Source: Ryuthela nishihirai (Eukaryota; Arthropoda; Arachnida; Araneae; Heptathelidae). Taken from it: a stretch of DNA of 64,000 nt. The notes beneath the pieces are model-generated. The model worked only from the letters and a program-made list of their open reading frames with translations. It had not been told where the DNA came from and searched no databases. The translations under genes were made by a program, and so were the position numbers. The stretch lies in contig JAWZYU010000001.1 of assembly GCA_038380435.1 (NCBI GenBank), positions 11,512,001-11,576,000 of the forward strand. The letters are read 5' to 3'. Below, one piece after another: positions 37,980 through 59,689 of the stretch (its first letter is position 1; each line of letters starts with the position of its first letter).

Positions 37980-38480
37980 TTCATCTTTCGAGAGCCTTAG
38001 CTGATCCTGTGAGGTCATCATACTACGTTACAATCACTGAGGTTGATTTACTAAAATTCTCCATGAAAGGTTTGGCTATCTACAGTCTCGTGAGGTTCTC
38101 TACTCCACATAACCTACAATTCCCCTTACAATCTGACAATTACATAATTTCTTTCGTGCCAAAATTATATAATGAATGCATGTAGTGAGAGAGTGAATGC
38201 ATGTAGTGAGCAAGTGAGTGAATGCATGTAGTTAGTGAGTGAATGTGTGTGTGTTGTACCAGAGCCTCACGTTAGCCATCCATTACCTGAGGTTTTCCTT
38301 AAAGATAAAAGGAACTTTTGAGGAAATCAACAGATAATGGATGTTGCCCGTCTCCCACGATCTAGGACGTCTGAGGGTGGCTTTTAGGGGAGACATTTTT
38401 TTTTTTATTTTTTTCAACTTTGTTGACCTTTTTCTTTCTCTCTTGAGTTTAACATTTTCCTTTTTTCTAATTATCTTCAA
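37980..38480. repeat. Array spacer with GTGAGTGAAT microsatellite
   Basis: This non-coding spacer is shared by all units (also at 42290-42740, 45860-46310, 47553-48025, 51825-52290, 53505-53980 and 57830-58310). It has an AT-rich start, then TGCATGTAGTGAGTGAGTGAA and TGTGTGTGTTGTACCAGAG, then CTAGGACGTCTGAGGGTGG and a T-rich tract (A-rich on the coding strand). Repeat number differs between copies. It probably holds the 3' end of the gene to its right, with AATAAA-type words on the minus strand. Confidence 0.8.
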
Positions 38481-38880
38481 TCATTTTTTTTCACCGGAGA
38501 ATTCCTTCCACATAGCAATAAAAACAATTAAAAGATGTGAAATACAGAAGGTAAGTTTAACGACAAGCCAGGTGTAGAGGAAGACATCAAATTCATCTTC
38601 TATTTCAGGAACATAGACATCATCACTTCTTAATTCTGTAGACCCTTCATTTGTTGGAACCAAACTGTGAAGGAAATCTATCGTCTATTTCTCAAATCTG
38701 CTTCACCATTCTTGTACCGGTGTCTGTAGAAGTGGAAGATCCTGAACTACAACTCTTCGTCAATTTCTATTTGATTCTATTTGAGGGAAATTCTGGTCAT
38801 CTACTGGAAATTGTTCGGAGATGTATCTTTTATGTGGAATGTTCAGTAGTTTGAGCCTATTGAATTTATTGTCAGTATGA
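38481..38880 (-). pseudogene. Type 0 anchored-protein relic, unit A
   Basis: Only the C-terminal part of the family is open: acidic VYVPEIEDEFDVF, a hydrophobic segment KLTFCISHLLIVFIAMW, and the family ending KEFSGEKK-stop. Upstream, GSSTSTDTGT and FPVDDQNFPQIE lie in other frames. It is a degenerate member without a start exon. The same relic occurs at 48027-48481 and 53981-54360. Confidence 0.65.
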
Positions 38881-39117
38881 GGGGAGGGGATGCATGTAGT
38901 GAGTGAGTGAATGTGTGTGTGTTGTACCAGAGCATCATGTTAGCCATCCATTACCTGAGGTTTTCCCTAAAGATAAAAAGAACTTTTGAGGAAATCAACA
39001 GATAATGGATGTTGCCCATCTCCCACGATCTAGGATGTCTGAGGGTGGGTTTTGGGGGAGACATTTTTCTTTTCTTTTTTTTTTCTTTTTTTCGAATTAT
39101 CATTCTATTATTTTTTT

Positions 39118-39842
39118 TCACCTAAGAATTCCTTTACATTGTAAAGGACCATCAAAAGATATATAACGGAGAAGGTGAATTTCATCACATCCCACATGAT
39201 GACGACATCTCTGAAGACATCCTCTTCATCATTATCCTCTTCATCATTATACTCTTCATCATTGTTCTCTGAATCTGTTGTAATTAAATTCGGGTTATTT
39301 GATTCAGTTGAAGTGGACGATCCTGTAGTATAAATGTTCTGAGATTTTGTTTCTGTTTCAGGAATATCTTCTTCGTCCTCTGCAAATCGGTCTATGGCAT
39401 TTTGTTTATGTGGGATGTTCTGTAGTTGGAGCCGAAAGGTTCAGGGAATGAGAAATGGGACTGAGAAATCTAGTTTAGGTGGAATGTTAGGTCGTTCGGA
39501 CCTCAATACACAGTCAACAATAGTGGAGGGGATGTAAAATGTCGATCTTCCTGATGGGTGGCCTTGTTCATTTCTCCCCTCCACAGTCCCTTCGCAACAG
39601 GAACTAAAGCAACATAAACTAGGGCAACACTTCTTCATCCTGGTCCAGCCTCTACGGAGGCATTTCCTGCCCCTCCTTGCAAAATCTGACGTACGTTGGC
39701 GTACATTAACCGCTCTGCGCGTACCATCGGCAGTCGGCATCCTGCCCATACACAAAATTAATTCAAAAAAGTTCAACACAATAAACCTACTAGAAACAAA
39801 TCTCAATAAATATATGCGCACAAAAACACTTACAAATCGCAA
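39118..39842 (-). pseudogene. Type 1 anchored protein, unit A, nonsense copy
   Basis: This is the same gene as the intact copies at 48634 and 54611. Here a single base change makes TGA (39441-39443) where the others have TGC (Cys) after FSVPFLIP. The rest of the frame stays open to the KEFLGEKK stop at 39118. Upstream, GTAAGTG (minus strand, donor at 39833) and GGGCAG|GATG (acceptor before 39741) would define a 92-bp intron ending one base before ATG. This is probably a recent loss of function. Confidence 0.7.
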
Positions 39843-40189
39843 ATTCCTCTTAATGCTTCTAAGGAAATATATCCTTTAAACTTGTTAATTTTTTTCAGTT
39901 ACATAGTTCAGAATTTTGAATAATTAAGATTTTAATTTGTTGCATCTGCTGAAGGTTTATAATGCCAGATACAGGTAACAATGAGAATCATTTTCACATA
40001 TTAATATTTATCTGTATATTTTTGATGGTGACCATATTGAATATATTAAAATTAGTTTGGGGGACTGCAAATGGTCATTTCTTAAAATCACATCGATTAT
40101 ATATTTATCTGTTTCTTTACTCCTCTCAGGTGAGCAGAAAAGCACTTAAATGATTAAAAGCAAAATTTCTGAATAGTAACTTACTTCGT

Positions 40190-40600
40190 CATCACATGAT
40201 CACCGACGTGCAGATGACGTCAGGAGCATGAGATAAGCGGTGTTGGTAAGCGCCGGGGAGCCTCGCTTCGCATTGGCTGTTGCCTCACAGCTGCATGCAT
40301 CCTTTCGTATTTCCAGAGTAGGGTGTGGGGGAAAAACTGGTTTGCTGCTTGCCACTGCGGCCGCTTTCTTCTGATTGGTTGTAAGCCTGCTGTCATCGTT
40401 GGCTTTCTTTGGGAGCACGCTGTGGTGCCAATAACTCATATGTGGTGGCGTTTGCAATGGGCGGTGAGTGACGGTCTCTACGAGGCGTTCCTGGGCAACG
40501 GACTGGTCGAAATTCTGGTCCCCATCGGCGGATTCTTCGGATATGCCAATACTCCGGAAGTTTCTGTGTGGGAACAAGTTCTTACTTCATAATTGTGGTA
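40190..40600 (-). promoter_or_regulatory. CpG-rich promoter-like block, unit A
   Basis: This is a GC- and CpG-rich island in AT-rich DNA. It has TGACGTCA (40215-40222), two inverted CCAAT boxes (CATTGGCT near 40271 and CTGATTGGTT at 40371-40380, an NF-Y-type Y box) and GCGGCCGC. It lies about 350 bp upstream of the membrane-anchored protein gene on the minus strand, in every unit: 43765-44165, 49715-50105 and 55700-56100, and truncated at 47390-47550, 53335-53502 and 59405-59672. Long frames on both strands here start at non-ATG codons and are probably by-products. Promoter function is inferred from motifs and position only. Confidence 0.45.
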
Positions 40601-41393
40601 TGCTTATTCACCCACACAACTAAACTCAGTTTTCTTTTCCTAGTCTTCCATTGCTTCAGCAATTTGATTAGTACCGACACTTGAATGAAGCTGAGTTTTC
40701 TGATTATTTTGCCAACTCCATGTGAATATAAAGAGAACGCTTTGCTACAAAGGTCACCTTTGAATTTCGCTCGTAAATCAAGACATCTCGATTTCTCTCT
40801 GACCTTAACTCGGAGCCTCATCAGCGTACGTTTGGAGTTTTCAGACGGAAACGATACATTTTCTCTTCTGTTTGATGAAGTTTTTGCTTTATTTGAGTTG
40901 CCGGTATCTCATGCTTAGCAAGGGCATAATTTGTTCCACTGATTACTGAATTGTTTTCACTTAATGCTACCGTTTCTTCTACATCCTTATCACGTTCCGT
41001 GCCCACCATTACTTTGTGGCTTCCATGAGGTTCCAAATGCCCCAGAAGTGAGTTTTCTTGAATATCTACTCTTCCCCCAATTTGGGTGTCACTGAATGTC
41101 CCTTCCTCCCTGTCTCTTCCTATTGTTAGCTTCGCTTCCTCTGTATCGATTTGCATCGGAGGGCTATCGTCAGACTTGATAAATGCCGATTTTTCAGTTT
41201 CGGCGAGTGCCTTTAAATCTTCTGGCCCTAAAGACTGTCTTGCATCTTCCATGCACATTTCCTCATCTACTGTCTCTGTATTCCCACAGTTTTGCTCTTT
41301 GATCAAAGTAATGTCTACCTGACATGCGTTGCTCCTTTGTACGCCATTTGTGTTAGCCTTGTGTTCTCCCTCATCATCAATGTCGTCCGACAT
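40582..41393 (-). pseudogene. Acidic/basic frame, unit A, frameshifted
   Basis: ATG at 41391-41393 opens 190 codons with the acidic N-terminal part (MSDDIDDEGEH, GNTETVDEEMCMED, SLGPEDLKAL). A missing base near 40885 ends it early, and the basic C-terminal part continues in another frame (40582-40821). Unit F keeps the base and reads across this junction. Unit D restores the frame by an inserted base nearby. The protein is unrecognised. Confidence 0.6.
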
Positions 41394-41483
41394 GACTTTA
41401 ATTAAGTCTTACTCGCTGTTCCCATCTAACTGTTCTGCAGGCATTTGTTTCTCCTTTCTCTGCCTCGCCCCTCTTCTAATACC

Positions 41484-41906
41484 TCACTTTCTTAAGCCAA
41501 ACGTCTTAAAAATTCCGCAGATTTCTTTCCTAACGCCCTCTATATCAAAAACATTTTCAACTATATTTATCACCTCTTCGTCTTCCTCTAAACCGATAGG
41601 GGTGAAAATGTAGGCTATTAATCTCTTGACGTCTAGATCGCTCTTACTACTCCAAGACATGGGAAGAGGTCCCAGTTCTGCCTCTAATATTTTGCACAGG
41701 GCATATTGCTTAATTAGGCCAAGTTCGGGCTTTTCTTCAGGAGGGTTACATCCCTGTTTCACTAATTCGTACTCCTTAACCAAGTGTCCTTGCCTTGAAA
41801 TTTCACAGATTGCTTCTCTAACACCATCTATGTCGAAAGCAATTTCTACTAGACTTATCGCTTCCTCGTCTTCCTCTAGGCTAATAGGGGTTAAAACTTT
41901 CTCCAC
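41484..41906 (-). CDS. Repeat-containing acidic frame, unit A
   Basis: A 140-codon stretch has two copies of a module: TPISLEEDEEAISLVEIAFD with IDGVREAIC, and TPIGLEEDEEVINIVENVFD with IEGVRKEIC. They are separated by a second copy of the LEAELGP element, which first occurs upstream. The apparent start is a GTG, not ATG, and the sequence is open further upstream to a TGA that falls where the sister module has TGG (Trp). It may be an exon or part of a longer frame. No known family. Confidence 0.5.
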   Translation of the reverse strand: MEKVLTPISLEEDEEAISLVEIAFDIDGVREAICEISRQGHLVKEYELVKQGCNPPEEKPELGLIKQYALCKILEAELGPLPMSWSSKSDLDVKRLIAYIFTPIGLEEDEEVINIVENVFDIEGVRKEICGIFKTFGLRK

Positions 41907-41939
41907 TAATTGTTCAACGTCTAAATTAACTGCATTTCT

Positions 41940-42314
41940 TCAGCACATAGGAGGAGGTCCCAACTCCGCCTCTAATGTCAGGTACAGAGCAGATTGTTCA
42001 ATTGTCTTAGGTTTGGGCGTGGCATATGCTAGGAGTTCATGTGAGCCGTAAGGCAAATTTCCAATTTCTTCCCTTTCCCGTTCATCGTAATTTCGGTTCT
42101 GTAGCCTTTGAGGATGAGCCAAACCATACTCTATGTGGCTATCAGGATTGTCGTAAGTGAAATGTTCTCTTGTGGGATTCATTCTATCGGGGGCAATTTC
42201 TGGCAAAATGGCCAAACTCTCCACATTCAAAACATTCTTCCCTTTGATGTCTTGTGTTCTTGATGGGAATGTTTTCTCGGTTTTTTTTTCATCTTTTGAG
42301 AGCTATAGCTGACC
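41940..42314 (-). pseudogene. Zinc-knuckle region and upstream frame, unit A
   Basis: Two overlapping minus-strand frames. One (to 42184) holds CFECGEFGHFARNCP, a C-X2-C-X4-H-X4-C zinc knuckle as in retroviral-type gag and nucleic-acid-binding proteins, ending at TAG two codons later. The other (41940-42230) holds REHFTYDNPDSHIEYGLA, YDEREREEIGNLPYGSHELL and the first LEAELGP element, ending at the conserved TGA. No ATG suits the knuckle frame here, and an upstream CCTAG|G could be a splice acceptor. The knuckle is kept in all five complete copies. Confidence 0.5.
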
Positions 42315-42741: not shown

Positions 42742-43293
42742 TTATTGTTCACATTTTTTGTCACCGGAGAATGCCTTCCACATAGCAAAGAGGTCCAGCA
42801 AAAGATGTAAAACAAATCTGAATCTAATAACATTCCATGTGATGAGGAAGACATCCTCTTCATCGTCCTCTGATCCTGTTATCGATAACATCCAGTTATT
42901 GGTGACTTCAGATTCACTGGTGCCAGTAGAAGTGGAAGATCCTGAACCACACGGGTGCGTCAGTCCTGATTTTATTGGACGAGAATCCTCATCATCCACC
43001 GAAAATGGTTCTGATATATATCTCATGGGTGGAATGTTTAACGTTTCGAGTCTAATGACACTGTGGTCATTGCGAGTGGAGGGGATATAGAATATTTATC
43101 TTTCGGGTGGGTGGCTATGCTCATTGCTCCCCTCCATACTCCCTTCATAAGAGCTACAACAACAAGAACATTTTTTTTTCAGCTGTTTCCAACCTCTACA
43201 GAGGCATTCCCTGCCCCTCCTTGCAAAACTTGAGGCGCGTTTGCGTACATTGAACGCTCTGCGCGTACAATCAGTACTAGGCATCCTGCCCAT
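42742..43293 (-). pseudogene. Type 2 anchored protein, unit A (first)
   Basis: The basic start MPSTDCTRRAFNV, FARRGRECLCRGW and a Cys cluster are followed by a TAA after HSHPPER. Beyond it the frame goes on with the family segment YISEPFSVDDEDSRPIKSG, GSGSSTSTGTSESEV, acidic SEDDEEDVF and the hydrophobic end with KAFSGDKK. All three type 2 copies share this TAA, so it predates their duplication. Either the short Cys-rich peptide is the product, or the type is a pseudogene, or the stop is removed by splicing. Confidence 0.55.
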
Positions 43294-43764
43294 TCAAGTC
43301 AATACAAATAATACTCAGTATACACTATCTAGCAACTACTTCAAATATAAATATCTATTTGCGCTCTATCATTAATAGTGAATCAAAGAACACTTACAAT
43401 CGCATGTAAAACATTTCAACTTAACTCTTCTAAGGAAAGATATCCTTTAAACCCATTAATTGTTTTTCATTTACATTGTTCAGAATTTTGAATAATTAAG
43501 ATTTTAATTTGTTGTGTCTGCTGAAGGTTTATAATGCCAGATACAGGTAACAATGAAAATCATTTTCACATATTAATATTTATCTATTTGTTTTTGATGG
43601 TGACCATTTTGAATATATTAAAATTAGTTTGGGGGGACTGCAAATGGTCATTTCTTAAAATCACATTGATTACATATTTATCTGTTTCTTTACTCCTCTC
43701 AGGTGAGCAGAAAAGCACTTAAATGATTAAAAGCAAAATTTCTGAATAGTAACTTACTTCATCA

Positions 43765-44165
43765 TCACATGATCACTGACGTGCAGATGACGTCAGGAGC
43801 ATGAGATAAGCGGTGTTGGTAAGCGCTGGGGAGCCTCGCTTCACATTGGCTGTTGCCTCACAGCTGCATGCATCCTTTCGTATTTCCAGAGTAGGGTGTG
43901 GGGGAAAAACTGGTTTGCTGCTTGCCACTGCGGCCGCTTTCTTCTGATTGGTTGTAAGCCTGCTCTCATCGTTGGCTTTCTCTGGGAGCACGCTGTGGTG
44001 CCGATAACTCATATGTGGTGGCGTTTGCAATGGGCGGTGAGTGACGGTCTCTACGAGGCGTTCCTGGGCAACGGACTGGTCAAAATTCTGGTCCCCATCG
44101 GCGGATTCTTCGGATATGCCAATACTCTGGAAGTTTCTGTGTGGGAACAAGTTCTTACTTCGTAA
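43765..44165 (-). promoter_or_regulatory. CpG-rich promoter-like block, second in unit A
   Basis: This is nearly identical to 40190-40600, with the CRE palindrome, both inverted CCAAT boxes and the NotI-type GCGGCCGC. It lies upstream of the type 2 gene at 42742-43293. Confidence 0.45.
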
Positions 44166-44176
44166 TTGTGGTATGC

Positions 44177-44964
44177 TTATTCACCCACACAACTAAACTC
44201 AGTTTTCTTTTTCCTAGTCTTCCATTGCTTCAGTAATTTGATTAGTACCGACACTTGAATGAATCTGAGTTTTCTGATTATCGTGCCAACTCCGTGCGAA
44301 TATAAATAGAACCCTTTGCTACAAAGGTCACCCTTGAATTTCGCTCGTAAATCAAGACATCTCGATTTGTCTCTGACCTTAACTCGAAGCCTCATCAGTG
44401 TACGTTTGGAGTGTTCAGAAGGAAACAATACATTTTCTCTTCTGTTTGATGAAGATTTTTGCTTTGAGTTGCCGGTATCTCATGCTTAGCAAGGGCATAA
44501 TTTGTTCCACTGATTACTGAATTGTTTTCACTTAATGCTTCCATTTCTTCTGCATACTTATCACGTTCCGTGCCCACCATTACTTTGTGGCTTCCATGAG
44601 GTTCCAAATGCCCCACAAGTGAGTTTTCTTGAATATCTACTCTTCCCCCAATTTGGGTGTCACTAAATGTCCCTTCCTCCCTGTCTCTTCCTATTGTTAG
44701 CTTCGCTTCCTCTGTATCGATTTGCATCGGAGGGCTACCGTCAGACGTGATAAATGCCGATTTTTCAGTTTCGGTGAGTGCCTTTAAATCTTTTGGCCCT
44801 AAAGACTGTCTTGCATCTTCCATGCACATTTCCTCATCTACTGTCTCTGTATTCCCACAGTTTTGCTCTTCGTTCAAAATAATGTCTACCTGACATGCGT
44901 TGCTCCTTTGTACGCCATTTGTGTTAGCCTTGTGTTCTCCCTCACCATCAATGTCGTCCAACAT
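44177..44964 (-). pseudogene. Acidic/basic frame, second copy in unit A
   Basis: ATG at 44962-44964 opens 189 codons (MLDDIDGEGEH, then the shared acidic body). A small deletion in the ATQIKQK region shifts the frame, and the basic C-terminal part is open separately at 44177-44428. It is the same protein as in the other units and is broken here. Confidence 0.55.
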
Positions 44965-45059
44965 GACTATAATTAAGTCTTACTCGCTGTTCCCATCTAA
45001 CTGTTCTGCAGTCATTTGTTTCTCCTTTTCTCTCCCTCGCCCCTCTTCTAATGCCTCAC

Positions 45060-45887
45060 TTTCTTAAGCCAAACGTCTTAAAAATTCCACAGATTTCTTT
45101 CCTAACACCTGTGTCAAAAATATTTTCAACTATATTTATCACCTCTTCGTCTTCCTCTAAACCGATAGGGGTGAAAACGTAGGCTATTAATCTCTCGACG
45201 TCTAGATCGCTCTTACTACTCCAAGACATGGGAAAAGGTCGCAGTTCTGCCTCTAATATTTTGTACAGGGCATATTGCTTAATTAGGCCAAGTTCGGGCT
45301 TTTCTTCAGGAGGGTTACATCACTTTCACAAATTCGTACTCGTTTACCAAGCGTCCTTGCCTTAAAATTTCTCAGATTGCTTCTCTAACACCATCTATGT
45401 CGAAAGCAATTTCTACTAGACTTATCGCTTCCTCGTGTTCCTCTAGGCTAATAGATGTGAAAACTTTTTCCTCTAATTGTTCAACGTCTAAATTAACTAC
45501 ATTTCTTCACCACATAGGAGGAGGTCCCAACTCCGCCTCTAATGTCAGGTACAGAGCAGATTGTTCAATTGTCTTAGGTTTGGGCGTGGCATATGCTAGG
45601 AATTTATGTGAGCCGTAAGGCAAATTTCCAATTTCTTCCCTTTCCCGTTCATCGTAATTTCAGTTCTGTGGCCTATGAGGATGAGGAGCCGAACCATACT
45701 CTATGTGGCTATCATGATTGTCGTAAGTGAAATGTTCTCTTGTGGGATTCATTCTATCGGGGACAATTTCTGGCAAAATGGCCAAATTCTCCACATTCGA
45801 AACATTCTTCCCTTTGATGTCTCGTGTTCTTGATGGGAATGTTTTTTCGTTTTTTTTTTCATCTTTTGAGAGCCTTAGCTGACCCTA
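45060..45887 (-). pseudogene. Degenerate repeat/zinc-knuckle region
   Basis: This corresponds to 41484-42314 but carries more indels: lost bases near 45105 and 45320 break the two-module frame. The knuckle CFECGEFGHFARNC is still readable (minus strand, about 45765-45815). At the conserved TGA the preceding codon is TGG here instead of TGC. Confidence 0.6.
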
Positions 45888-46312: not shown

Positions 46313-46867
46313 TTAATTTTCGTTCTCATTTCTTGTCACCGGAGAATGCCTTCCACATAGCAAAGAGGACCAGCAAAAGATGTAAAACAATGTGAATCTA
46401 ATCACATTCCATGTGATGAGGAAGACATCCTCTTCATCGTCCTTTGATCCTGTTATCGATAACATCCAGCTATTGGTGACTTCACATTCACTGGTGCCAG
46501 TAGAAGTGGAAGATCCTGAACCACATGGGTGCGTCAGTCCTGATTTTATTGGACGAGAATCCTCATCATCCACCGAAAATGGTTCTGATATATATCTCTT
46601 GGGTGGAATGTTTAACGTTTCGAGTCTAATGACACTGTGGTCATTGCGAGTGGAGGGGATATAGAATATTTATCTTTCGGGTGGGTGGCTATGCTCATTG
46701 CTCCCCTCCATACTCCCTTCATAAGAGCTACAACAACAAGAACAGGTTTTTTTCAGCTGTTTCCAACCTCTACAGAGGCATTCCCTGCCCCTCCTTGCAA
46801 AACTTGAGGAGTGTTCGTGTACATTAAACGCTCTGCGCGTACAATCAGTACTAGGCATCCTGCCCAT
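46313..46867 (-). pseudogene. Type 2 anchored protein, unit A (second)
   Basis: Start MPSTDCTRRAFNV, the same TAA after HSHPPER, then the open family segment from VDDEDSRPIKSG on. Near the end a small indel shifts the hydrophobic tail into another frame (FYIFCWSSLLCGRHS), so the KAFSGDKK ending is not read in frame. It is almost identical to the copy at 52292-52849. Confidence 0.6.
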
Positions 46868-47133: not shown

Positions 47134-47190
47134 TTTTCACATATTAATATTTATGTATTAAATTAATACATAAATATTAATATGTGAAAA
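47134..47190. repeat. 57-bp perfect palindrome
   Basis: Arms of 28 bp (TTTTCACATATTAATATTTA and on to TGTATTAA) surround a single central A. The same palindrome is at 53112-53168. Units with the ancestral arrangement (40000, 43575, 49520) have only the left arm, so the right arm is a templated inverted copy made once and then amplified. Confidence 0.9.
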
Positions 47191-48026
47191 ATCTATCTGT
47201 TTGTTTTCGATGGTGACCATTTTGAATATATTGAAATTAGTTTGAGGGACTGCAAACGGTCATTTCTTAAAATCACATCGATTACGTATTTATCTGTGTC
47301 TTTACCCCTCTCACGTGATCAGAAAAGTGCTTAAATGATTAAAAGCAAACTTTCTCAATAGTAACTTACTTCGTCATCACATGATCATTGACGTGCAGAT
47401 GACGTCAGGAGCATGAGAGTAAGCGGTGTTGGTAAGCACCGCGGGAGCCTCGCTTCCCGTTGGCTCTTGCCTCACAGCTGCATGCATCCTTCCGTATTTC
47501 CAGAGTAGAGTGTGGGGGAAAAACTGGTTTGCTGCTTTCCACTGCAGTCGCTGAGAGCCTCAGCTGACCGTAGGAGGTCATCATACTACGTTACAAAACA
47601 CTGAGGTTGATTTACTAAAATTCTTCATGAAAAGTTTGGCTATCAACAGTCTCGTGAGGTTCTCTACTCCACATAACCTAAAATTCTCCTTACAATATGA
47701 CAATTACATAATCTCTTTCGTGCCAAAATTATATAATGAATGCATGTAGTGAGCCAAGTGAGTGAATGCATGTAGTGAGTGAGTGAGTGAATGTGTGTGT
47801 GTTGTACCAGAGCCTCATGTTAGCCATCCATTACCTGAGGTTTTCCCTAAAGATAAAAGGAACTTTTGAGGAAATCTTCAGATAATGTATATTGCCCATC
47901 TCCCATGATCTAGGACGTCTGAGGGTGGCTTTTGGGGGAGACCTTTTTTTTTATTTTTTTCAACTTTGTTGACCTTTTTCTTTCTCTCTTGAGTTTAACA
48001 TTTTCCTTTTTTCTAATTATCTTCAA

Positions 48027-48481
48027 TCATTTTTTTTCACCGGAGAATTCCTTCCACATAGCAATAAAAACAATTAAAAGATGTGAAATACAGAAGGTAA
48101 GTTTAACGACAAGCCAGGTGTAGAGGAAGACATCAAATTCATCTTCTATTTCAGGAACATAGACATCATCACTTCTTAATTCTGTAGACCCTTCATTTGT
48201 TGGAACCAAACTGTGAAGGAAATCTATCGTCTATTTCTCAAATCTGCTTCACCATTCTTGTACCAGTGTCTGTAGAAGTGGAAGATCCTGAACTACAACT
48301 CTTCGTCAATTTCTATTTGAGGGAAATTCTGGTCATCTACTGGAAATTGTTCGGAGATGTATCTTTTATGTGGAATGTTCAGTAGTTTGAGCCTATTGAA
48401 TTTATTGTCAGTATGAGGGGAGGGGATGCATGTAGTGAGTGAGTGAATGTGTGTGTTGTACCAGAGCATCATGTTAGCCAT
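48027..48481 (-). pseudogene. Type 0 anchored-protein relic, unit D
   Basis: Same as at 38481: an open C-terminal part ending KEFSGEKK, and upstream, in another frame, IPHKRYISEQFPVDDQNFPQ. It differs from the other copies by a 9-base deletion near 48312. Confidence 0.6.
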
Positions 48482-48633
48482 CCATTACCTGAGGTTTTCC
48501 CTAAAGATAAAAAGAACTTTTGAGGAAATCAACAGATAATGGATGTTGCCCATCTCCCACGATCTAGGACGTCTGAGGGTGGGTTTTGGGGGAGACATTT
48601 TTTTTTTCTTTTTTTCGAATTATCATTCTATTA

Positions 48634-49272
48634 TTTTTTTTCACCTAAGAATTCCTTTACATTGTAAAGGACCATCAAAAGATATATAACGGAGAAGGTG
48701 AATTTCATCACATCCCACATGATGACGACATCTCTGAAGACATCCTCTTCATCATTATCCTCTTCATCATTATACTCTTCATCATTGTTCTCTGAATCTG
48801 TTGTAATTAAATTCGGGTTATTTGATTCAGTTGAAGTGGACGATCCTGTAGTATAAATGTTCTGAGATCTCGTTTCTGTTTCAGGAATATCTTCTTCGTC
48901 CTCTGCAAATCGGTCTATGGCATTTTGTTTATGTGGGATGTTCTGTAGTTGGAGCCGAAAGGTGCAGGGAATGAGAAATGGGACTGAGAAATCTAGTTTA
49001 GGTGGAATGTTAGGTCGTTCGGACCTCAATACACAGTCAACAATAGTGGAGGGGATGTAAAATGTCGATCTTCCTGATGGGTGGCCTTGTTCATTTCTCC
49101 CCTCCACAGTCCCTTCGCAACAGGAACTAAAGCAACATAAACTAGGGCAACACTTCTTCATCCTGGTCCAGCCTCTACGGAGGCATTTCCTGCCCCTCCT
49201 TGCAAAATCTGATGCGCGTTGGCGTACATTAAACGCTCTGCGCGTACCATCGGCAGTCGGCATCCTGCCCAT
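48634..49272 (-). CDS. Type 1 membrane-anchored protein, unit D, intact
   Basis: ATG at 49270-49272 (or 49261-49263, one base after a good acceptor GGGCAG|G) gives about 213 aa. In order: a basic Cys-rich head (TRRAFNVRQRASDFARRGRK, KKCCPSLCCFSSCC), FYIPSTIVDCVLRSERPNIP, a family segment with DFSVPFLIPC and LQLQNIPHK, a Ser/Thr stretch, an acidic run of NDEED repeats, and a hydrophobic segment of about 20 residues (FTFSVIYLLMVLY) with the ending VKEFLGEKK. The layout suggests a tail-anchored or single-pass protein, but topology and function are unknown. A 92-bp 5' intron with GTAAGTG donor is predicted. It lies 450 bp downstream of the CpG block. Confidence 0.6.
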
Positions 49273-49714
49273 ACACAAAATTAATTCAAAAAAGTTCAAC
49301 ACAATAAACCTACTAGAAACAAATCTCAATAAATATATGCGCACAAAAACACTTACAAATCGCAAATTCCTCTTAATGCTTCTAAGGAAATATATCCTTT
49401 AAACTTGTTAATTGTTTTTCAGTTACATTGTTCAGAATTTTGAATAATTAAGATTTTAATTTGTTGTATCTGCTGAAGGTTTATAATGCCAGATACAGGT
49501 AACAATGAGAATCATTTTCACATATTAATATTTATCTGTATATTTTTGATGGTGACCATTTTGAATATATTAAAATTAGTTTGGGGGACTGCAAATGGTC
49601 ATTTCTTAAAATCACATCGATTACATATTTATCTGTTTCTTTACTCCTCTCAGGTGAGCAGAAAAGCACTTAAATGATTAAAAGCAAAATTTCTGAATAG
49701 TAACTTACTTCGTC

Positions 49715-50105
49715 ATCACATGATCACCGACGTGCAGATGACGTCAGGAACATGAGATAAGCGGTGTTGGTAAGCGCCGGGGAGCCTCGCTTCGCATTGG
49801 CTGTTGCCTCACAGCTGCATGCATCCTTTCGTATTTCCAGAGTAGGGTGTGGGGGAAAAACTGGTTTGCTGCTTGCCACTGCCGCCGCTTTCTTCTGATT
49901 GGTTGTAAGCCTGCTGTCATCGTTGGCTTTCTCTGGGAGCACGCTGTGGTGCCGATAACTCATATGTGGTGGCGTTTGCAATGGGCGGTGAGTGACGGTC
50001 TCTACGAGGCGTTCCTGGGCAATGGACTGGTCGAAATTCTGGTCCCCATCGGCGGATTCTTCGGATATGCCAATACTCCGGAAGTTTCTGTGTGGGAACA
50101 AGTTC
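49715..50105 (-). promoter_or_regulatory. CpG-rich promoter-like block, unit D
   Basis: Same motifs as unit A (CRE, two inverted CCAAT boxes), except that GCGGCCGC is changed to GCCGCCGC. It is upstream of the intact type 1 gene. Confidence 0.45.
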
Positions 50106-50127
50106 TTACGTCGTAATTGTGGTATGC

Positions 50128-50919
50128 TTATTCACCCACACAACTAAACTCAGTTTTCTTTTTCCTAGTCTTCCATTGCTTCAGTAATTTGATTAGTACC
50201 GACACTTGAATGAAGCTGAGTTTTCTGATTATTTTGCCAACTCCATGTGAATATAAAGAGAACGCTTTGCTACAAAGGTCACCTTTGAATTTCGCTCGTA
50301 AATCAAGACATCTCGATTTCTCTCTGACCTTAACTCGGAGCCTCATCAGTGTACGTTTGGAGTTTTCAGACGGAAACGATACATTTTCTCTTTCTGTTTG
50401 ATGAAGTTTTTGCTTTATTTGAGTTGCCGGTATCTCATGCTTAGCAAGGGCATAATTTGTTCCACTGATTACTGAATTGTTTTCACTTAATGCTTCCGTT
50501 TCTTCTACATCCTTATCACGTTCCGTGCCCACCATTACTTTGTGGCTTCCATGAGGTTCCAAATGCCCCAGAAGTGAGTTTTCTTGAATATCTACTCTTC
50601 CCCCAATTTGGGTGTCACTAAATGTCCCTTCCTCCCTGTCTCTTCCTATTGTTAGCTTCTCTTCCTCTGTATCGATTTGCATCGGAGGGCTATCGTCAGA
50701 CTTGATAAATGCCGATTTTTCAGTTTCCGCGAGTGCCTTTAAATCTTCTGGCCCTAAAGACTGTCTTGCATCTTCCATGCACATTTCCTCATCTACTGTC
50801 TCTGTATTCCCACAGTTTTGCTCTTCGATCAAAGTAATGTCTACCTGACATGCGTTGCTCCTTTGAACGCCATTTGTGTTAGCCTTGTGTTCTCCCTCAT
50901 CATCAATGTTGTCCGACAT
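50128..50919 (-). CDS. Acidic/basic protein, 263 aa, unit D, open
   Basis: A complete frame runs from ATG (50917-50919) to stop. The first ~150 residues are acidic (MSDNIDDEGEHKANTNG, VDEEMCMED, SLGPEDLKALAETEKSAF, DSPPMQIDTEEEKLTIG). The last ~90 are basic (RLRVKVREKSRCLDLRAKF, KLLKQWKTRKKKTEF). No signal peptide or membrane segment is seen. The open state depends on an extra T in the TCTCTTTCTG run near 50395, which offsets a base missing 12-15 bp further on relative to unit F. An in-frame TAA lies 8 codons upstream of the ATG. No family recognised. A nuclear or nucleic-acid role is possible from composition only. Confidence 0.5.
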   Translation of the reverse strand: MSDNIDDEGEHKANTNGVQRSNACQVDITLIEEQNCGNTETVDEEMCMEDARQSLGPEDLKALAETEKSAFIKSDDSPPMQIDTEEEKLTIGRDREEGTFSDTQIGGRVDIQENSLLGHLEPHGSHKVMVGTERDKDVEETEALSENNSVISGTNYALAKHEIPATQIKQKLHQTERENVSFPSENSKRTLMRLRVKVREKSRCLDLRAKFKGDLCSKAFSLYSHGVGKIIRKLSFIQVSVLIKLLKQWKTRKKKTEFSCVGE

Positions 50920-51010: not shown

Positions 51011-51433
51011 TCACTTTCTTAAGCCAAACGTCTTAAAAATTCCACAGATTTCTTTCCTAACGCCCTCTATATCAAAAACATTTTCAACTATATTTATCAC
51101 CTCTTCGTCTTCCTCTAAACCGATAGGGGTGAAAATGTAGCCTATTAATCTCTCGACGTCTAGATCGCTCTTACTACTCCAAGACATGGGAAGAGGTCCC
51201 AGTTCTGCCTCTAATATTTTGCACAGGGCATATTGCTTAATTAGGCCAAGTTCGGGCTTTTCTTCAGGAGGGTTACATCCCTGTTTCACTAATTCGTACT
51301 CCTTAACCAAGTGTCCTTGCCTTGAAATTTCACAGATTGCTTCTCTAACACCATCTATGTCGAAAGCAATTTCTACTAGACTTATCGCTTCCTCGTCTTC
51401 CTCTAGGCTAATAGGGGTTAAAACTTTCTCCAC
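51011..51433 (-). CDS. Repeat-containing acidic frame, unit D
   Basis: This is the same two-module 140-codon stretch as at 41484, with only two amino-acid differences. It ends FKTFGLRK-stop. The apparent first codon is GTG, so the true start or splice site lies elsewhere. The module carries LEEDEEAI, FDIDGVR and an invariant Cys (REAIC/KEIC). Confidence 0.5.
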   Translation of the reverse strand: MEKVLTPISLEEDEEAISLVEIAFDIDGVREAICEISRQGHLVKEYELVKQGCNPPEEKPELGLIKQYALCKILEAELGPLPMSWSSKSDLDVERLIGYIFTPIGLEEDEEVINIVENVFDIEGVRKEICGIFKTFGLRK

Positions 51434-51466
51434 TAATTGTTCAACGTCTAAATTAACTGCATTTCT

Positions 51467-51842
51467 TCAGCACATAGGAGGAGGTCCCAACTCCGCCTCT
51501 AATGTCAGGTACAGAGCAGATTGTTCAATTGTCTTAGGTTTGGGCGTGGCATATGCTAGGAGTTCATGTGAGCCGTAAGGGAAATTTCCAATTTCTTCCC
51601 TTTCCCGTTCATCGTAATTTCGGTTCTGTGGCCTATGAGGATGAGCCGAACCATACTCTACGTGGCTATCAGGATTGTCGTAAGTGAAATGTTCTCTTGT
51701 GGGATTCATTCTATCGGGGGCAATTTCTGGCAAAATGGCCAAACTGTCCACATTCAAAACATTCTTCCCTTTGATGTCTTGTGTTCTTGATGGGAATGTT
51801 TTCTCGGTTTTTTTTTTCATCTTTTGAGAGCCTTAGCTGACC
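51467..51842 (-). pseudogene. Zinc-knuckle region and upstream frame, unit D
   Basis: ATG at 51818-51820 opens a 117-codon frame (KKKTEKTFPSRTQDIKG to LEAELGPPPMC) that ends at the conserved TGA. The overlapping frame 51711-51842, without ATG, has CFECGQFGHFARNCP and ends at TAG. It is preceded by CCTAG, a possible splice acceptor. The knuckle frame keeps all four zinc ligands in every copy, so it is the more convincing coding frame over that stretch. How the two connect is unclear. Confidence 0.5.
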
Positions 51843-52291
51843 CTAGGATGTCATCATACTACGTTACAAATACTGTGGTTGATTTACTAAAATTCTCCAT
51901 GAAAGGTTTGGTTATCAACAGTCTCGTGAGGTTCTCTACTTCACATAACCTACAAATCTCGTTACAATCTGAGAATTACATAATCTCTTTCGTGCCAAAA
52001 TTATATAATGAATGCATGTAGTGAGCGAGTGTATGCATGTAGTGAGCCAAGTGAGTGAATGCATGTAGTGACTGAGTGAATGTGTGTGTTGTACCAGAGC
52101 CTCATGTTTTAGCCATGCATTACCTGAGGTTTTCCCTAAAGATAAAAGGAACTTTTGAGGAAATCTTCAGATAATGGATGTTGCCCATCTCCCATGATCT
52201 AGGACGTCTGAGGGTGGCTTTTGGGAGAGACATTTTTTTTTACAACTTTTTTACCTTTTTCTTTCTCTTCAGTTTAACGTTTTGCTATTTT

Positions 52292-52849
52292 TTAATTTTC
52301 GTTCTCATTTCTTGTCACCGGAGAATGCCTTCCACATAGCAAAGAGGACCAGCAAAAGATGTAAAACAATGTGAATCTAATCGCATTCCATGTGATGAGG
52401 AAGACATCCTCTTCATCGTCCTTTGATCCTGTTATCGATAACATCCAGCTATTGGTGACTTCACATTCACTGGTGCCAGTAGAAGTGAAAGATCCTGAAC
52501 CACATGGGTGCGTCAGTCCTGATTTTATTGGACGAGAATCCTCATCATCCACCGAAAATGGTTCTGATATATATCTCTTGGGTGGAATGTTTAACGTTTC
52601 GAGTCTAATGACACTGTGGTCATTGCGAGTGGAGGGGATATAGAATATTTATCTTTCGGGTGGGTGGCTATGCTCATTGCTCCCCTCCATACTCCCTTCA
52701 TAAGAGCTACAACAACAAGAACAGGTTTTTTTCAGCTGTTTCCAACCTCTACAGAGGCATTCCCTGCCCCTCCTTGCAAAACTTGAGGCGTGTTCGTGTA
52801 CATTAAACGCTCTGCGCGTACAATCAGTACTAGGCATCTGCCCATTCAA
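52292..52849 (-). pseudogene. Type 2 anchored protein, unit D
   Basis: Near-identical to 46313-46867, with the same TAA after HSHPPER and the same shifted tail. The GGCAG acceptor before the ATG has lost a base here (GGGCAGATGCC), and the upstream donor word reads TTAAGTG in place of GTAAGTG, so splicing of the short intron should fail. Confidence 0.6.
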
Positions 52850-53168: not shown

Positions 53169-53980
53169 ATCATTTTGAATATATTGAAATTAGTTTGAGG
53201 GACTGCAAACGGTCATTTCTTAAAATCACATCGATTACGTATTTATCTGTGTCTTTACCCCTCTCACGTGATCAGAAAAGTGCTTAAATGATTAAAAGCA
53301 AACTTTCTCAATAGTAACTTACTTCGTCATCACATGATCATTGACGTGCAGATGACGTCAGGAGCATGAGAGTAAGCGGTGTTGGTAAGCACCGCGGGAG
53401 CCTCGCTTCCCGTTGGCTCTTGCCTCACAGCTGCATGCATCCTTCCGTATTTCCAGAGTAGAGTGTGGGGGAAAAACTGGTTTGCTGCTTTCCACTGCAG
53501 TCGCTGAGAGCCTCATCTGACCGTAGGAGGTCATCATACTACGTTACAAACACTGAGGTTGATTTACTAAAATTCTTCATGAAAGGTTTGGCTATCAACA
53601 GTCTCGTGAGGTTCTCTACTCCACATAACCTAAAATTCTCCTTACAATCTGACAATTACATAATCTCTTTCGTGCCAAAATTATATAATGAATGCATGTA
53701 GTGAGCCAAGTGAGTGAATGCATGTAGTGAGTGAGTGAGTGAATGTGTGTGTGTTGTACCAGAGCCTCATGTTAGCCATCCATTACCTGAGGTTTTCCCT
53801 AAAGATAAAAGGAACTTTTGAGGAAATCTTCAGATAATGTATATTGCCCATCTCCCATGATCTAGGACGTCTGAGGGTGGCTTTTGGGGGAGACCTTTTT
53901 TTTTTTATTTTTTTCAACTTTGTTGACCTTTTTCTTTCTCTCTTGAGTTTAACATTTTCCTTTTTTCTAATTATCTTCAA

Positions 53981-54360
53981 TCATTTTTTTTCACCGGAGA
54001 ATTCCTTCCACATAGCAATAAAAACAATTAAAAGATGTGAAATACAGAAGGTAAGTTTAACGACAAGCCAGGTGTAGAGGAAGACATCAAATTCATTTTC
54101 TATTTCAGGAACATAGACATCATCACTTCTTAATTCTGTAGACCCTTCATTTGTTGGAACCAAACTGTGAAGGAAATATATCGTCTATTTCTCAAATCTG
54201 CTTCACCATTCTTGTACCGGTGTCTGTAGAAGTGGAAGATCCTGAACTACAACTCTTCGTCAATTTCTATTTGATTCTATTTGAGGGAAATTCTGGTCAT
54301 CTACTGGAAATTGTTCGGAGATGTATCTTTTATGTGGAATGTTCAGTAGTTTGAGCCTAT
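53981..54360 (-). pseudogene. Type 0 anchored-protein relic, unit F
   Basis: Same as at 38481, ending KEFSGEKK, with one change in the acidic part (IENEFDVF). Upstream frames are broken as in the other two copies. Confidence 0.6.
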
Positions 54361-54610
54361 TGAATTTATTGTCAGTATGAGGGGAGGGGATGCATGTAGT
54401 GAGTGAGTGAATGTGTGTGTGTTGTACCAGAGCATCATGTTAGCCATCCATTACCTGAGGTTTTCCCTAAAGATAAAAAGAACTTTTGAGGAAATCAACA
54501 GATAATGGATGTTGCCCATCTCCCACGATCTAGGACGTCTGAGGGTGGGTTTTGCGGGAGACATTTTTTTTTTCTTTTTTTTTTCTTTTTTTCGAATTAT
54601 CATTCTATTA

Positions 54611-55264
54611 TTTTTTTTCACCTAAGAATTCCTTTACATTGTAAAGGACCATCAAAAGATATATAACGGAGAAGGTGAATTTCATCACATCCCACATGAT
54701 GACGACATCTCTGAAGACATCCTCTTCATCATTATCCTCTTCATCATTATCCTCTTCATCATTATACTCTTCATCATTGTTCTCTGAATCTGTTGTAATT
54801 AAATTCGGGTTATTTGATTCAGTTGAAGTGGACGATCCTGTAGTATAAATGTTCTGAGATCTTGTTTCTGTTTCAGGAATATCTTCTTCGTCCTCTGCAA
54901 ATCGGTCTATTGCATTTTGTTTATGTGGGATGTTCTGTAGTTGGAGCCGAAAGGTGCAAGGAATGAGAAATGGGACTGAGAAATCTAGTTTAGGTGGAAT
55001 GTTAGGTCGTTCGGACCTCAATACACAGTCAACAATAGTGGAGGGGATGTAAAATGTCGATCTTCCTGATGGGTGGCCTTGTTCATTTCTCCCCTCCACA
55101 GTCCCTTCGCAACAGGAACTAAAGCAACATAAACTAGGGCAACACTTCTTCATCCTGGTCCAGCCTCTACGGAGGCATTTCCTGCCCCTCCTTGCAAAAT
55201 CTGACGCGCGTTGGCGTACATTAAACGCTCTGCGCGTACCATCGGCAGTCGGCATCCTGCCCAT
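54611..55264 (-). CDS. Type 1 membrane-anchored protein, unit F, intact
   Basis: ATG at 55262-55264 gives about 218 aa, matching the unit D protein but with one more NDEED acidic repeat (a 15-bp unit). Cys-rich basic head, family segment, acidic run, hydrophobic C-terminal segment and VKEFLGEKK are all in place. The predicted upstream donor has lost four bases here (ACACAAATCGC in place of ACACTTACAAATCGC), so the 92-bp intron cannot be removed in the same way. The ATG remains usable. Function unknown. Confidence 0.6.
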
Positions 55265-55699
55265 ACACAAAATTAATTCAAAAAAGTTCAACACAATAAA
55301 CCTACTAGAAACAAATCTCAATAAATATATGCGCACAAAAACACAAATCGCAAATTCCTCTTAATGCTTCTAAGGAAATATATCCTTTAAACTTGTTAAT
55401 TGTTTTTCAGTTACATTGTTCAGAATTTTGAATAATTAAGATTTTAATTTGTTGCATCTGCTGAAGGTTTATAATGCCAGATACAGGTAACAATGAGAAT
55501 CATTTTCACATATTAATATTTATCTGTATATTTTTATGACGACCATTTTGAATATATTAAAATTAGTTTGGGGAACTGCAAATGGTCATTTCTAAAAATC
55601 ACATCGATGACGTATTTATCTGTTTTTTTACTCCACACACGTGATCAGAAAAGCGCTTAAATGATTAAAAGCAAACTTTCTGAATAGTAACTTACTTCG

Positions 55700-56100
55700 T
55701 CATCACAAGATCACTGACGTGCAGATGACGTCAGGAGCATGAGAGTAAGCGGTGTTGGTAAGCGCCGCGGGAGCCTCGCTTCGCGTGGCTGTTGCCTCAC
55801 AGCTGCATGCATCCTTCCATATTTCCAGAGTAGGGTGTGGGGAAAAATCTGGTTTGCTGCTCGCCACTGCGGCCGCTTTCTTCTGATTGGTTTTAAGCCT
55901 TCTGTCGTCGTTGGATTTCTCCGAGAGCATGCTGTGGCGCTGATAACTTGTCTGTGGTGGCGGTCGCAATGGGCGGTGAGGAACGGTCTCTATGACGTGT
56001 TCCTGGGCGACTGGCTGTTCAAAATTCTGGTCCCCGTAGGCGGATTCTTCGGATATGCCAATAGTCCAGAAGTCTCTGTGTGGGAACAAGTTACTACTTC
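55700..56100 (-). promoter_or_regulatory. CpG-rich promoter-like block, unit F
   Basis: The most diverged of the complete blocks. It keeps TGACGTCA and the CTGATTGGTT Y box but has many changes elsewhere. It lies upstream of the intact type 1 gene at 54611-55264. Confidence 0.45.
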
Positions 56101-56115
56101 GTAATTGTGGTATGC

Positions 56116-56950
56116 TTATTCACCAACACAACTAAACTCTGTTTTCTTTTTCCTAGTCTTCCATTGCTTCAGTAATTTGATTAGTACCAACGCTTGAATG
56201 AATCTGAGTTTTCTGATTATTGTGCCAACTCTGTGCGAATATAAAGAGAAAGCTTTGCTACAAAGGTCACCTTTGAATTTCGCTCGTAAATCAAGACATC
56301 TCGATCTCTCTCTGACCTTAACTCGGAGCCTCACCAGTGTACGTTTGGAGTGTGTTTTTGCTTTCTCTTCAGACGGAAATGATACATTTTCTCTTCTCTT
56401 TGATGAAGATTTTTGCTTTATTTGATTTGCTGGTATCTCATGCTTAGCAAGGACATAATTTGTTCCACTGATTACTGAATTCTTTTCACTTAATGCTTCT
56501 GTTTCTTCTACATTTCTTATCACCATTTCTTTGTGGTGCCCACCATTTCTTTGTGGCTTCCCTGAGGTTCCAAATGCCCCACAAGTGAGTTTTCTTGAAT
56601 ATCTACTCTTCCCCCAATTTGGGTGTCACTAAACGTCCCTTCCTCCCTGTCTCTTCCTATTGTTAGCTTCGCTTCCTCTGTATCGATTTGCATTGGAGGG
56701 CTATCGTCAGACTTGATAAATGCCGATTTTTCAGTTTCGGTGAGTGCCTTTAAATCTTCTGGCCCTAAAGACTCTCTTGCATCTTCCATGCACATTTCCT
56801 CATCTACTGTCTCTGTATTCTAACAGTTTTGCTCTTCGATCAAAATAATGTCTACCTCACGTGTTACTCCTTTCTATGCCATTTGTGTTAGCCCTGTGTT
56901 CTTCCTCATCATCAATGTCGTCCTACATGACTATAATTAAGTCTTCCTCG
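56116..56950 (-). pseudogene. Acidic/basic frame, unit F, broken
   Basis: The C-terminal 136 codons (56116-56526) are open and read smoothly from the acidic into the basic part (ENSVISG-like NSVISGTNYVLAKHEIP, then RLRVKVRERSRCLDLRAKF). This supports one continuous ancestral frame. The N-terminal part (56520-56795 and beyond) is broken by a 19-bp duplication around 56525 and by a TAG in place of the TCG after the usual ATG. Upstream of that ATG the frame lacks the TAA seen in unit D. Confidence 0.6.
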
Positions 56951-57019
56951 CTGTTCCCATCTAACTGTTCTACAGGCATTTGTTTCTCCTTTTCTCTCCC
57001 TCGCCCTTCTTCTAATGCC

Positions 57020-57442
57020 TCACTTTCTTGAGCTAAACATCTTTAAAAATCCATAGATTTCTTTCCTAAGGCCCTGTATGTCAAAAATATTTTCAACTAT
57101 ATTTATCACCTCTTCATCTTCCTCTAAACCGATAGGGGTGAAAATGTAGGCTATTAATCTCTCGACGTCTAGATCGCTCTTACTACTCCAAGACATGGGA
57201 AGAGGTCCCAGTTCTGCCTCTAATATTTTGTACAGGGCATATTGCTTAATTAGGCCAAGTTCGGGCTTTTCTTCAGGAGGGTTACATCCCTGTTTCACTA
57301 ATTCGTACTCCTTAACCAAGTGTCCTTGCCTTGAAATTTCACAGATTGCTTCTCTAACACCATCTATGTCGAAAGCAATTTCTACTAGACTTATCGCTTC
57401 CTCGTCTTCCTCTAGGCTAATAGGGGTTAAAACTTTCTCCAC
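57020..57442 (-). CDS. Repeat-containing acidic frame, unit F
   Basis: The same two-module stretch as units A and D, with a changed end (IFDIQGLRKEIYGFLKMFSS), in which the module's Cys is replaced by Tyr. This is the only copy with that loss. Otherwise open. Confidence 0.5.
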   Translation of the reverse strand: MEKVLTPISLEEDEEAISLVEIAFDIDGVREAICEISRQGHLVKEYELVKQGCNPPEEKPELGLIKQYALYKILEAELGPLPMSWSSKSDLDVERLIAYIFTPIGLEEDEEVINIVENIFDIQGLRKEIYGFLKMFSSRK

Positions 57443-57479
57443 TAATTGTTCAACGTCTAAATTAACTGCATTTCTTCAG

Positions 57480-57800
57480 CACATAGGAGGAGGTCCCAAC
57501 TCCGCCTCTAATGTCAGGTACAAAGCAGATTATTCAATTGTCTTAGGTTTGGGCGTGGCATATGCTAGGAGTTCATGTGAGCCGTAAGGCAAATTTCCAA
57601 TTTGTTTCCTTTCCCGTTCATCGTAAATTCGGTTCTGTGGCCTATGAGGAGCCGAACGATACTCTATGTGGCTATCAGGATTGTTGTAAGTGAAATGTTC
57701 TCTTGTGGGATTCATTCTATCGGGCGCAATTTCTGGCAAAATGGCCAAACTTTCCACATTCAAAACATTCTTCCCTTTGATGACTCGTGTTCTTGATGGG
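57480..57800 (-). pseudogene. Zinc-knuckle region, unit F
   Basis: The overlapping frames are as in unit D. The knuckle reads CFECGKFGHFARNC with all ligands kept. The second frame holds YDERERKQIGNLPYGSHELL and ends at the shared TGA. Confidence 0.5.
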
Positions 57801-58309
57801 AATGTTTTTTCGTTTTTTTTTCATATTTCGAGATCCTTAGCTGACCTTAAGAGGTGATTATACTACGTTACAAACACTGAGGTTGATTTACTAAAATTCT
57901 TCATGAAATTTTTGGCTATTAACAGTCTCGTGAGGTTCTCTACTCCACCTAACCTACAATTCTCCTTACAATCTGTCAATTACATAATCTCTTTCGTGCC
58001 AAAATTATATAATGAATGCATGTAGTGAGCCAAGTGAGTGATGTAGTGAGCCAAGTGAGTGAATGTGTGTGTGTGTTGTACCAGAGCCTCATGTTAGCCA
58101 TCCATTACCTGAGGTTTTCCCTAAAGATAAAAGGAACTTTTGAGGAAATCAACAGATAATGGATGTTGTCCGTCTCCCACAATCTAGGACGTCTGAGGGT
58201 GGCTTTTGGGGGAGACATTTTTTTTTAATTTTTTCAACTTTGTTTACCTTTTCATTCTCTCTTGAGTTTAACATTTTCCTTTTTTCTAATTATCGTTCAA
58301 TCTTTTTTT

Positions 58310-59344
58310 TTCACCTGTGAATTCCTTCCGCCTGGCAAAGAGGACCATCAAAATATATAAAATAGAGAACGTGAATCTAATTACATTACATGTGATGAGG
58401 AAGACATCCTCTTCATCATCATCGTCCTCTGATCCTGGTGTAGATAACTTACAGTTATTGGTGACTTCATCAGCTTCACTGTCTGAAGGAAATCTTTCAC
58501 CGGTGCCAGTTGAAGTGGACGAACCTGAACCGGTGCTAGTAGTATTGTTCGTCGCCCTTTATTCTATTGGATGAAAATCCTGTTCATCCACTGAAAATGG
58601 GTATGAGAGGTATTTTTGACATTGAATGTTCTGTAGTTCCAACCTGATGACATGATAGTCAGTACGAATGCAGGGGATAGAAAATGGGTGTGAGACATGT
58701 CTTTCATGTGGAATGTTAGGAATAGTGAATCTAATTACATTCCATGTGATGAGGAAGACATCCTCTTCATCATCATCGTCCTCTGATCCTGGTGTAGATA
58801 ACTTCCAGTTATTGGTGACTTCATCAGCTTCACTCTCTGAAGGAAATCTTTCACCGGTGCCAGTTGAAGTGGACGAACCTGAACCGGTGCTAGTAGTATT
58901 GTTCGTCGCTCTTGATTCTATTGGACGAAAATTCTGTTTGTCCACTGAAAATGGGTCTGAGACGTATTTTTGACATCGAATGTTCTGTAGTTCGAACCTA
59001 ATGACATGATAGTCAGTACAAGTGCAGAGGATAGAAAATGGGTGTGAGACATATCTTTCACATGGAATGTTAGGAATAGTGAATCTAATTATATTCGATG
59101 TGATGAGGAAGACATCCTCTTCATCATCATCGTCCTCTGATCCTGGTGTAGATAACTTCCAGTTATTGGTGACTTCATCAGCTTCACTGTCTGAAGGAAA
59201 TCTTTCACCGGTGCCAGTTGAAGTGGACGATAGAGACGTATTTTTGACGTCGAATGTTCTGTAGTTCTGTTGTTTGGGGGACTGCAAATGGTCATTTCTT
59301 AAAATCACATCGATTACGTATTTATCTGTGTTTTTACTCATCAC
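58310..59344 (-). pseudogene. Type 3 anchored protein with tandem modules
   Basis: A 261-codon open frame (58559-59344, first codon GTG) contains two full modules of the family: YVSDPFSVDKQNFRPIES with SGSSTSTGTGERFPSESEAD, NNWKLSTPGSEDDDDEEDVF and LITWNVIRFTI. After a TAA (TCA in the sister module) a third module follows. It ends in a hydrophobic segment (FTFSILYILMVLF) and KEFTGEKK. The Cys-rich head is missing, the 5' part being replaced by sequence from the CpG-block side. It shows that the family segment is a repeatable module and that this copy grew by internal duplication. Confidence 0.6.
58360..59260. repeat. 352-bp tandem repeat coding for protein modules
   Basis: The phrase GAAGGAAATCTTTCACCGG recurs at about 58487, 58839 and 59193, so the period is near 352-354 bp with about 2.6 copies. 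Copies are highly similar. Each encodes one PFSV / STSTGTG / acidic / LITWNVIRFTI module on the minus strand. Confidence 0.9.
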
Positions 59345-59689
59345 ATGATCAGAAAAGCGCTTAAATAATTAAAACCAAAATTTCTTAATAGTAATTTACT
59401 TCGTCATCACATGATCACTGATGTGCAGATGACGTCAGGAGCATAAGAGTAAGCGGTGTTGGTAACCGCCGTGGGAGCCTCGCTTCGCGTTGGCTATTGC
59501 CTCACAGCTGCATGCATCCTTCCGTATTTCCAGAGTAGGGTGTGGGGGAAAAACTGGTTTGCTGCTCGCCACTGCGTCCGCTTTCTTCTGATTGGTTGTA
59601 GGCCTGCTGTCATCGTTGGCTTTCTCTGGGAGCACGCTATGGCGCCGATAACTCATCTGTGGTGGCGGTTGCATTAATCTAGAGCTCTT

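Follow-up and report, generated by a model that had tools for sequence, protein, structure and literature searches.

A mosaic tandem array in the spider Ryuthela nishihirai that may be a decaying, lineage-restricted gene family

Introduction

What kind of locus is an array in which the same protein-like frames recur in order, open in some copies and broken in others? The question is raised by a 64-kb window of the Ryuthela nishihirai genome (contig JAWZYU010000001.1, 11,512,001 to 11,576,000; positions below are those of the window), where, by self-comparison, a tandem array runs along the minus strand between 59673 and 37975. A first-pass annotation had described three ~6 kb units and likened them to fast-evolving immune, reproductive or selfish clusters. 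We read the array, with a probability of roughly 0.6, as a decaying lineage-restricted tandem gene family. That it is recently amplified and partly broken, as the annotation proposed, is borne out by self-comparison; divergence bins show it to be mosaic, and its proteins are unmatched in the protein searches made.

Results

An array of seven units

The array is built from five modules. P is a CpG-rich block with a perfect cAMP response element (CRE), M is an acidic frame that in most forms ends in a hydrophobic stretch (M'' being a short M), T is a tail, Z comprises the zinc knuckle and a two-module region, and AB is an acidic/basic open reading frame. Self-comparison yields seven units led by P, not the three described before. 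Four continue into Z and AB, the other three into M'' and a second T. The spacings from CRE to CRE are 3704, 2373, 3614, 2339, 3612 and 3573 bp. The ~6 kb period is thus real, but it is the sum of one 3.6–3.7 kb unit and one 2.3–2.4 kb unit that are unlike each other. The direct repeats detected in the array are these unit copies, and their ordered repetition is evident from the identity of 47553-53505 to 37990-43938 (96.0%), 53506-58481 (93.4%) and 43075-47552 (94.0%). Whichever reading holds, the seven-unit map supersedes the three-unit description.

Mosaic divergence and growth of the array

The near identity once ascribed to the units is found in blocks only: in 250 bp bins of pairwise alignments, substitutions range from 0 to 22.9%, with the peak where long M meets short M. 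The two junctions between T and a truncated P, 47552/47553 and 53505/53506, do share one sequence as originally reported (5 of 502 columns differ) and are one event, copied. The surrounding stretches, 46300-49300 and 52279-55300, differ by 15 substitutions and 75 gap columns in 3049, and the 250 bp bins beside them diverge by about 3–10%. Such a step in similarity around ~3 kb could mean that misassembly accounts for part of the array or of its most similar stretch. We consider this very improbable, given that the other copies are several percent apart and differ in module content, which makes most units, at least, distinct.

Identity between units is distributed block-wise, as in arrays shaped by gene conversion or unequal exchange. 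A single recent duplication of the whole 6 kb pair would not be expected to yield such blocks. From this mosaic divergence we infer unequal exchange together with gene conversion; an initial duplication would have been followed by gene conversion or further unequal exchange.

Open and broken frames

Intact and broken copies coexist, in agreement with the first-pass annotation. Long M is open in two of three copies and AB at full length in one of four; every short M (3/3) carries an in-frame stop, and the first part of M'' is interrupted in all three copies. The long M and AB frames are longer than in any of 500 dinucleotide shuffles: the two longest frames of the reference unit span 268 and 255 codons from stop to stop (shuffle maximum 230), while the third-longest, 151 codons, is reached by 56 of the 500.

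The open long M copies would encode proteins that are 100% identical save for a 5-residue acidic repeat, and the frame is kept both by this 15 bp indel and by the 118-codon period of the M repeats. The predicted product of 213–218 amino acids (aa) would begin with a basic, Cys-rich part, turn acidic in the middle and finish in a hydrophobic stretch, with a net charge of +11 at residues 1-75 and -18 at 76-178. The best 19-residue hydropathy is 1.77, near the end, for long M, 2.34 for M'', 1.96 for the repeat form and 1.67 for the short form, and the hydrophobic end of long M could serve as a membrane anchor. AB has a charge of -24 over its first 176 residues and +16 over its last 87.

Selection was assessed by column-wise permutation, in which changes are counted per alignment column and moved at random to like bases. 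Long M has 4 nonsynonymous changes among 9 (6.6 expected, P 0.065), AB 42 among 63 (45.6 expected, P 0.18) and the basic half of AB 13 among 25 (17.6 expected, P 0.028). Because nine regions or halves were covered in three frames each, a single P near 0.03 carries little weight. Ratios of nonsynonymous to synonymous divergence (dN/dS) between the first part of long M and short M are 0.44 and 0.46, compared with 0.63–0.88 in the other two same-strand frames, and an earlier pairwise count gave 0.58 for AB. Constraint on long M and AB is suggestive at best.

Promoter-like blocks and splice signals

The CRE, TGACGTCA, is present in all seven P copies, and an eighth lies outside the array at 35808. 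CCAATCA is found in five P copies and is missing from both truncated ones, so that the combined CRE/CCAAT block reported at first holds throughout for its CRE and in five units for its CCAAT box. The block probably starts minus-strand transcription of each unit. Conservation covers the entire P block, not just the two boxes; the minus frame of P shows 47 nonsynonymous changes among 71 (50.6 expected, P 0.22).

Judging by the sequence alone, a first exon in P (GAA|GTAAGT) spliced to the start of M would keep the reading frame. In T, the 12 bases between an acceptor-like TTTAG and a donor-like GTAATG are invariant in 9 of 10 copies; their use as a micro-exon was considered and dropped, since the whole T block is conserved. 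The RNA fold of T is unremarkable (z -0.32), and an Rfam scan of the unit gave weak matches only.

Weighing the gene family

Several observations weigh against the gene-family reading. The constraint signals are weak and drawn from many tests. Short M looks neutral (10 of 13 changes nonsynonymous in three copies, 9.9 expected), as does the acidic half of AB (29 nonsynonymous, 29.5 expected). Five pairwise in-frame comparisons of the M tails give dN/dS of 0.43, 0.59, 0.84, 0.61 and 0.46; the neighbouring frame is as low (0.37, 0.61, 0.37, 0.45 and 0.42), and the tail comparison therefore lends no support. The earlier pairwise count of 0.21 for long M stands beside 0.25 in one antisense frame, and the low divergence of long M may stem from gene conversion. 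The AlphaFold models score only 35.7 and 37.1 in pLDDT (the predicted local distance difference test), too low to be of use except for a helix at residues 175-208 of long M, where 13 residues reach 70. Finally, splice-site scoring with a hand-entered table places the strongest donors of the unit in P and its strongest acceptors in T. Joining them would skip M, which counts against the simplest gene model.

Alternatively, all units might be dead: recombination would have amplified a pseudogene array, or a repeat of no assigned class, and the open frames would be left over from recent duplication. The majority of frames are broken, the Z and P frames and short M are neutral, and the M tails fare no better than their control, all of which fits. 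We nevertheless hold this to be unlikely in view of the two frames that exceed 500 of 500 shuffles, the CRE kept in every P copy, and the weak constraint on long M and the basic half of AB.

A relic zinc-knuckle region

The zinc knuckle recognised at first pass is confirmed. The zf-CCHC family (PF00098) scores 30.2 bits with a 34 aa segment from the copy at 42 kb and 29.6 bits with the frame at 51711-51842, above the Pfam cut-off of 20.8, and is the only family to reach a curated cut-off among the array proteins. The motif C-x2-C-x4-H-x4-C is kept in five of five Z copies. Both the CCHC and the two-module parts exist as described, but not as one intact reading frame: their frames differ, and that of the two-module part is interrupted by an identical in-frame TGA in all five copies, including one dispersed outside the array. 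The changes in the two-module part fit neutrality (27 of 34 nonsynonymous, 24.2 expected), and the CCHC region has 35 of 47 nonsynonymous in the CCHC frame (33.9 expected) and 35 in the two-module frame (34.6 expected); the earlier pairwise count for Z was 1.06. Because the TGA is common to all copies and the changes fit neutrality, Z looks like a relic, dead rather than functional. The comparison of module 1 with module 2 (dN/dS 0.23, with 0.43–1.50 in the five other frames) suggests that it once coded.

Surroundings and the case for a mobile element

A zinc knuckle, a dispersed partial Z-AB copy and a retroelement-rich window would all suit a non-autonomous mobile element, or a fragment of one, moved by transposon machinery. 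We regard this as quite improbable. In the 47 of 69 frames scanned in the unit 47553-53505, no reverse transcriptase, RNase H, integrase, protease or transposase was found, and zf-CCHC and zf-CCHC_2 were the only matches with an E of 0.01 or less. At the array ends, exact matching revealed neither terminal inverted repeats nor a target-site duplication beyond what chance would give: the longest inverted match is 6 bp (control median 7, 95% 9) and the best flanking direct match 4 bp. Of the natures suggested at first pass, a selfish one is thus not supported in the sense of a transposon. The dispersed copy moreover adjoins a duplicated flank, which suggests segmental duplication.

This flank lies upstream of the array at 59678-63784 and recurs beside the dispersed copy at 30083-33827. 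One portion sits in reverse orientation between two inverted arms (60589-60942 and 63457-63784), as though recombination had flipped it. Both copies hold a short acidic frame, at 33580-33757 (-) and 61016-61250 (+), with stops at neighbouring codons, and no 300 bp window of the flank pieces exceeds the codon-periodicity threshold. Elsewhere in the window, a retroelement without long terminal repeats (non-LTR) occurs in three copies, 5109-8120 (-), 20426-23476 (+) and 11036-13620 (-), the first with an open 1003 aa frame containing endonuclease and reverse transcriptase domains. Another non-LTR element, which is broken, lies at 20-1980 (+) and shows reverse transcriptase as well as a weak match to RNase H. 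Transfer RNA-like repeats also occur, and together with the intact and broken non-LTR elements they point to an animal genome. A 321 bp unit forms two tandem repeats at 98% (14458-15088), and a degenerate 19/38 bp array at 16484-17862 is based on TTTTGCCAACTC.

Searches for relatives

The searchable collections were mainly microbial and viral, and "orphan" here denotes a lack of matches in these searches only. Three protein searches turned up 278, 56 and 368 candidates that share words with the query, but no match at E <= 1. Viral contigs held no relative of the two-module frame, long M, AB, repeat M or the window's reverse transcriptase, and genome contigs searched with the two-module alignment held none either. 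As the window's own reverse transcriptase is also unmatched, these collections seem to contain little of the lineage, and absence from them says little. The best matches to solved structures were at E 1.3, 0.13, 0.041, none and 0.79. The group at 0.13, human immunodeficiency virus gp120, aligns on an acidic stretch and was taken as compositional, as was a designed coiled coil at 0.041. Pfam matches under the cut-off, among them SHS2_FTSA, DUF3246 (0.0023) and CENP-B_dimeris (0.01), were set aside, and NCBIfam gave two weak matches far under cut-off. Among the papers listed by literature searches, none seemed to resemble this array.

Table 1. Units and modules of the array, with the dispersed copy. 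Orders are read along the minus strand.
Feature	Position	Strand	Remarks
Unit 1		-	P-M(repeat form)-T-Z-AB
Unit 2		-	P-M(long)-T-M''-T
Unit 3		-	truncated P-M(short)-T-Z-AB
Unit 4		-	P-M(long)-T-M''-T
Unit 5		-	truncated P-M(short)-T-Z-AB
Unit 6		-	P-M(short)-T-Z-AB
Unit 7		-	P-M(long)-T-M''-T
P, unit 1	59272..59673	-	CRE 59437, CCAATCA 59595
P, unit 2	55515..56115	-	CRE 55733, CCAATCA 55890
Truncated P, unit 3	53193..53505	-	CRE 53360, no CCAATCA
P, unit 4	49579..50127	-	CRE 49746, CCAATCA 49902
Truncated P, unit 5	47188..47552	-	CRE 47407, no CCAATCA
P, unit 6	43627..44176	-	CRE 43795, CCAATCA 43951
P, unit 7	40055..40603	-	CRE 40222, CCAATCA 40378
M, unit 1, repeat form	58286..59368	-	tandem repeats of 118 codons (354 bp); TAA ahead of the last repeat and tail
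Long M, unit 2	54608..55264	-	open
Short M, unit 3	52292..52837	-	in-frame stop and frame change
Long M, unit 4	48631..49272	-	open, 213 aa from ATG
Short M, unit 5	46313..46858	-	in-frame stop and frame change
Short M, unit 6	42742..43284	-	in-frame stop; tail frame open
Long M, unit 7	39108..39749	-	in-frame TGA at 39441
M'', unit 2	53981..54370	-	first part interrupted, tail frame open
M'', unit 4	48027..48406	-	first part interrupted, tail frame open
M'', unit 7	38481..38870	-	first part interrupted, tail frame open
T, one of 10 copies	51825..52260	-	
T at truncated-P junction	47553..47961	-	same at 53506
Z, unit 3	51011..51825	-	between T and AB
Z copy	57020..57820	-	
Z copy	45056..45860	-	extra frame break
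Z copy	41484..42302	-	
AB	50128..50919	-	open, 263 aa
AB copy	56116..56819	-	split between frames
AB copy	44177..44964	-	frame shortened to 189 aa
AB copy	40582..41393	-	frame shortened to 190 aa
Dispersed partial Z-AB	29194..29961	-	outside array

Discussion

In the decaying gene family that we favor, each unit is led by a CRE/CCAAT block that probably drives minus-strand transcription. The units would have multiplied as a pair of 3.6 kb and 2.4 kb through unequal exchange and been patched afterwards by gene conversion. The once-coding Z segment, its stop already inside, would have travelled with them as a passenger. Open frames persist in two copies of long M and one of AB, and the remaining copies are interrupted. 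A bolder version, which we find doubtful, is that of a new fast-evolving, lineage-confined family of small membrane-anchored acidic proteins with a repeated CRE/CCAAT promoter, whose array has absorbed a formerly coding zinc-knuckle segment.

Expression of the long M copies would make the locus a clean instance of a young array of genes captured between its birth and its decay, in which promoter, body and passenger segments can be distinguished and dated. If they are not expressed, the locus is a pseudogene array of the ordinary sort that usefully records unequal exchange.

The zf-CCHC domain is known from the Gag proteins of retroviruses and retrotransposons as well as from cellular proteins, CNBP among them, and the Z copies share its C-x2-C-x4-H-x4-C pattern. 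In contrast to those proteins, the array has a single knuckle in a frame of 43 codons that is not in frame with the two-module part, and unlike in Gag-type systems, no further Gag, reverse transcriptase or integrase piece was found in the array unit. The other close parallel is with fast-evolving tandem multigene arrays, taken as a general kind, in which unequal crossing over and gene conversion are at work. Like them, the array consists of units in tandem, is mosaic in its identity, mixes intact with broken copies and lacks detectable relatives; it differs in that its protein family is unmatched in our searches, unlike units alternate, and a dead zinc-knuckle segment is carried along. It is unusual in detail and familiar in kind.
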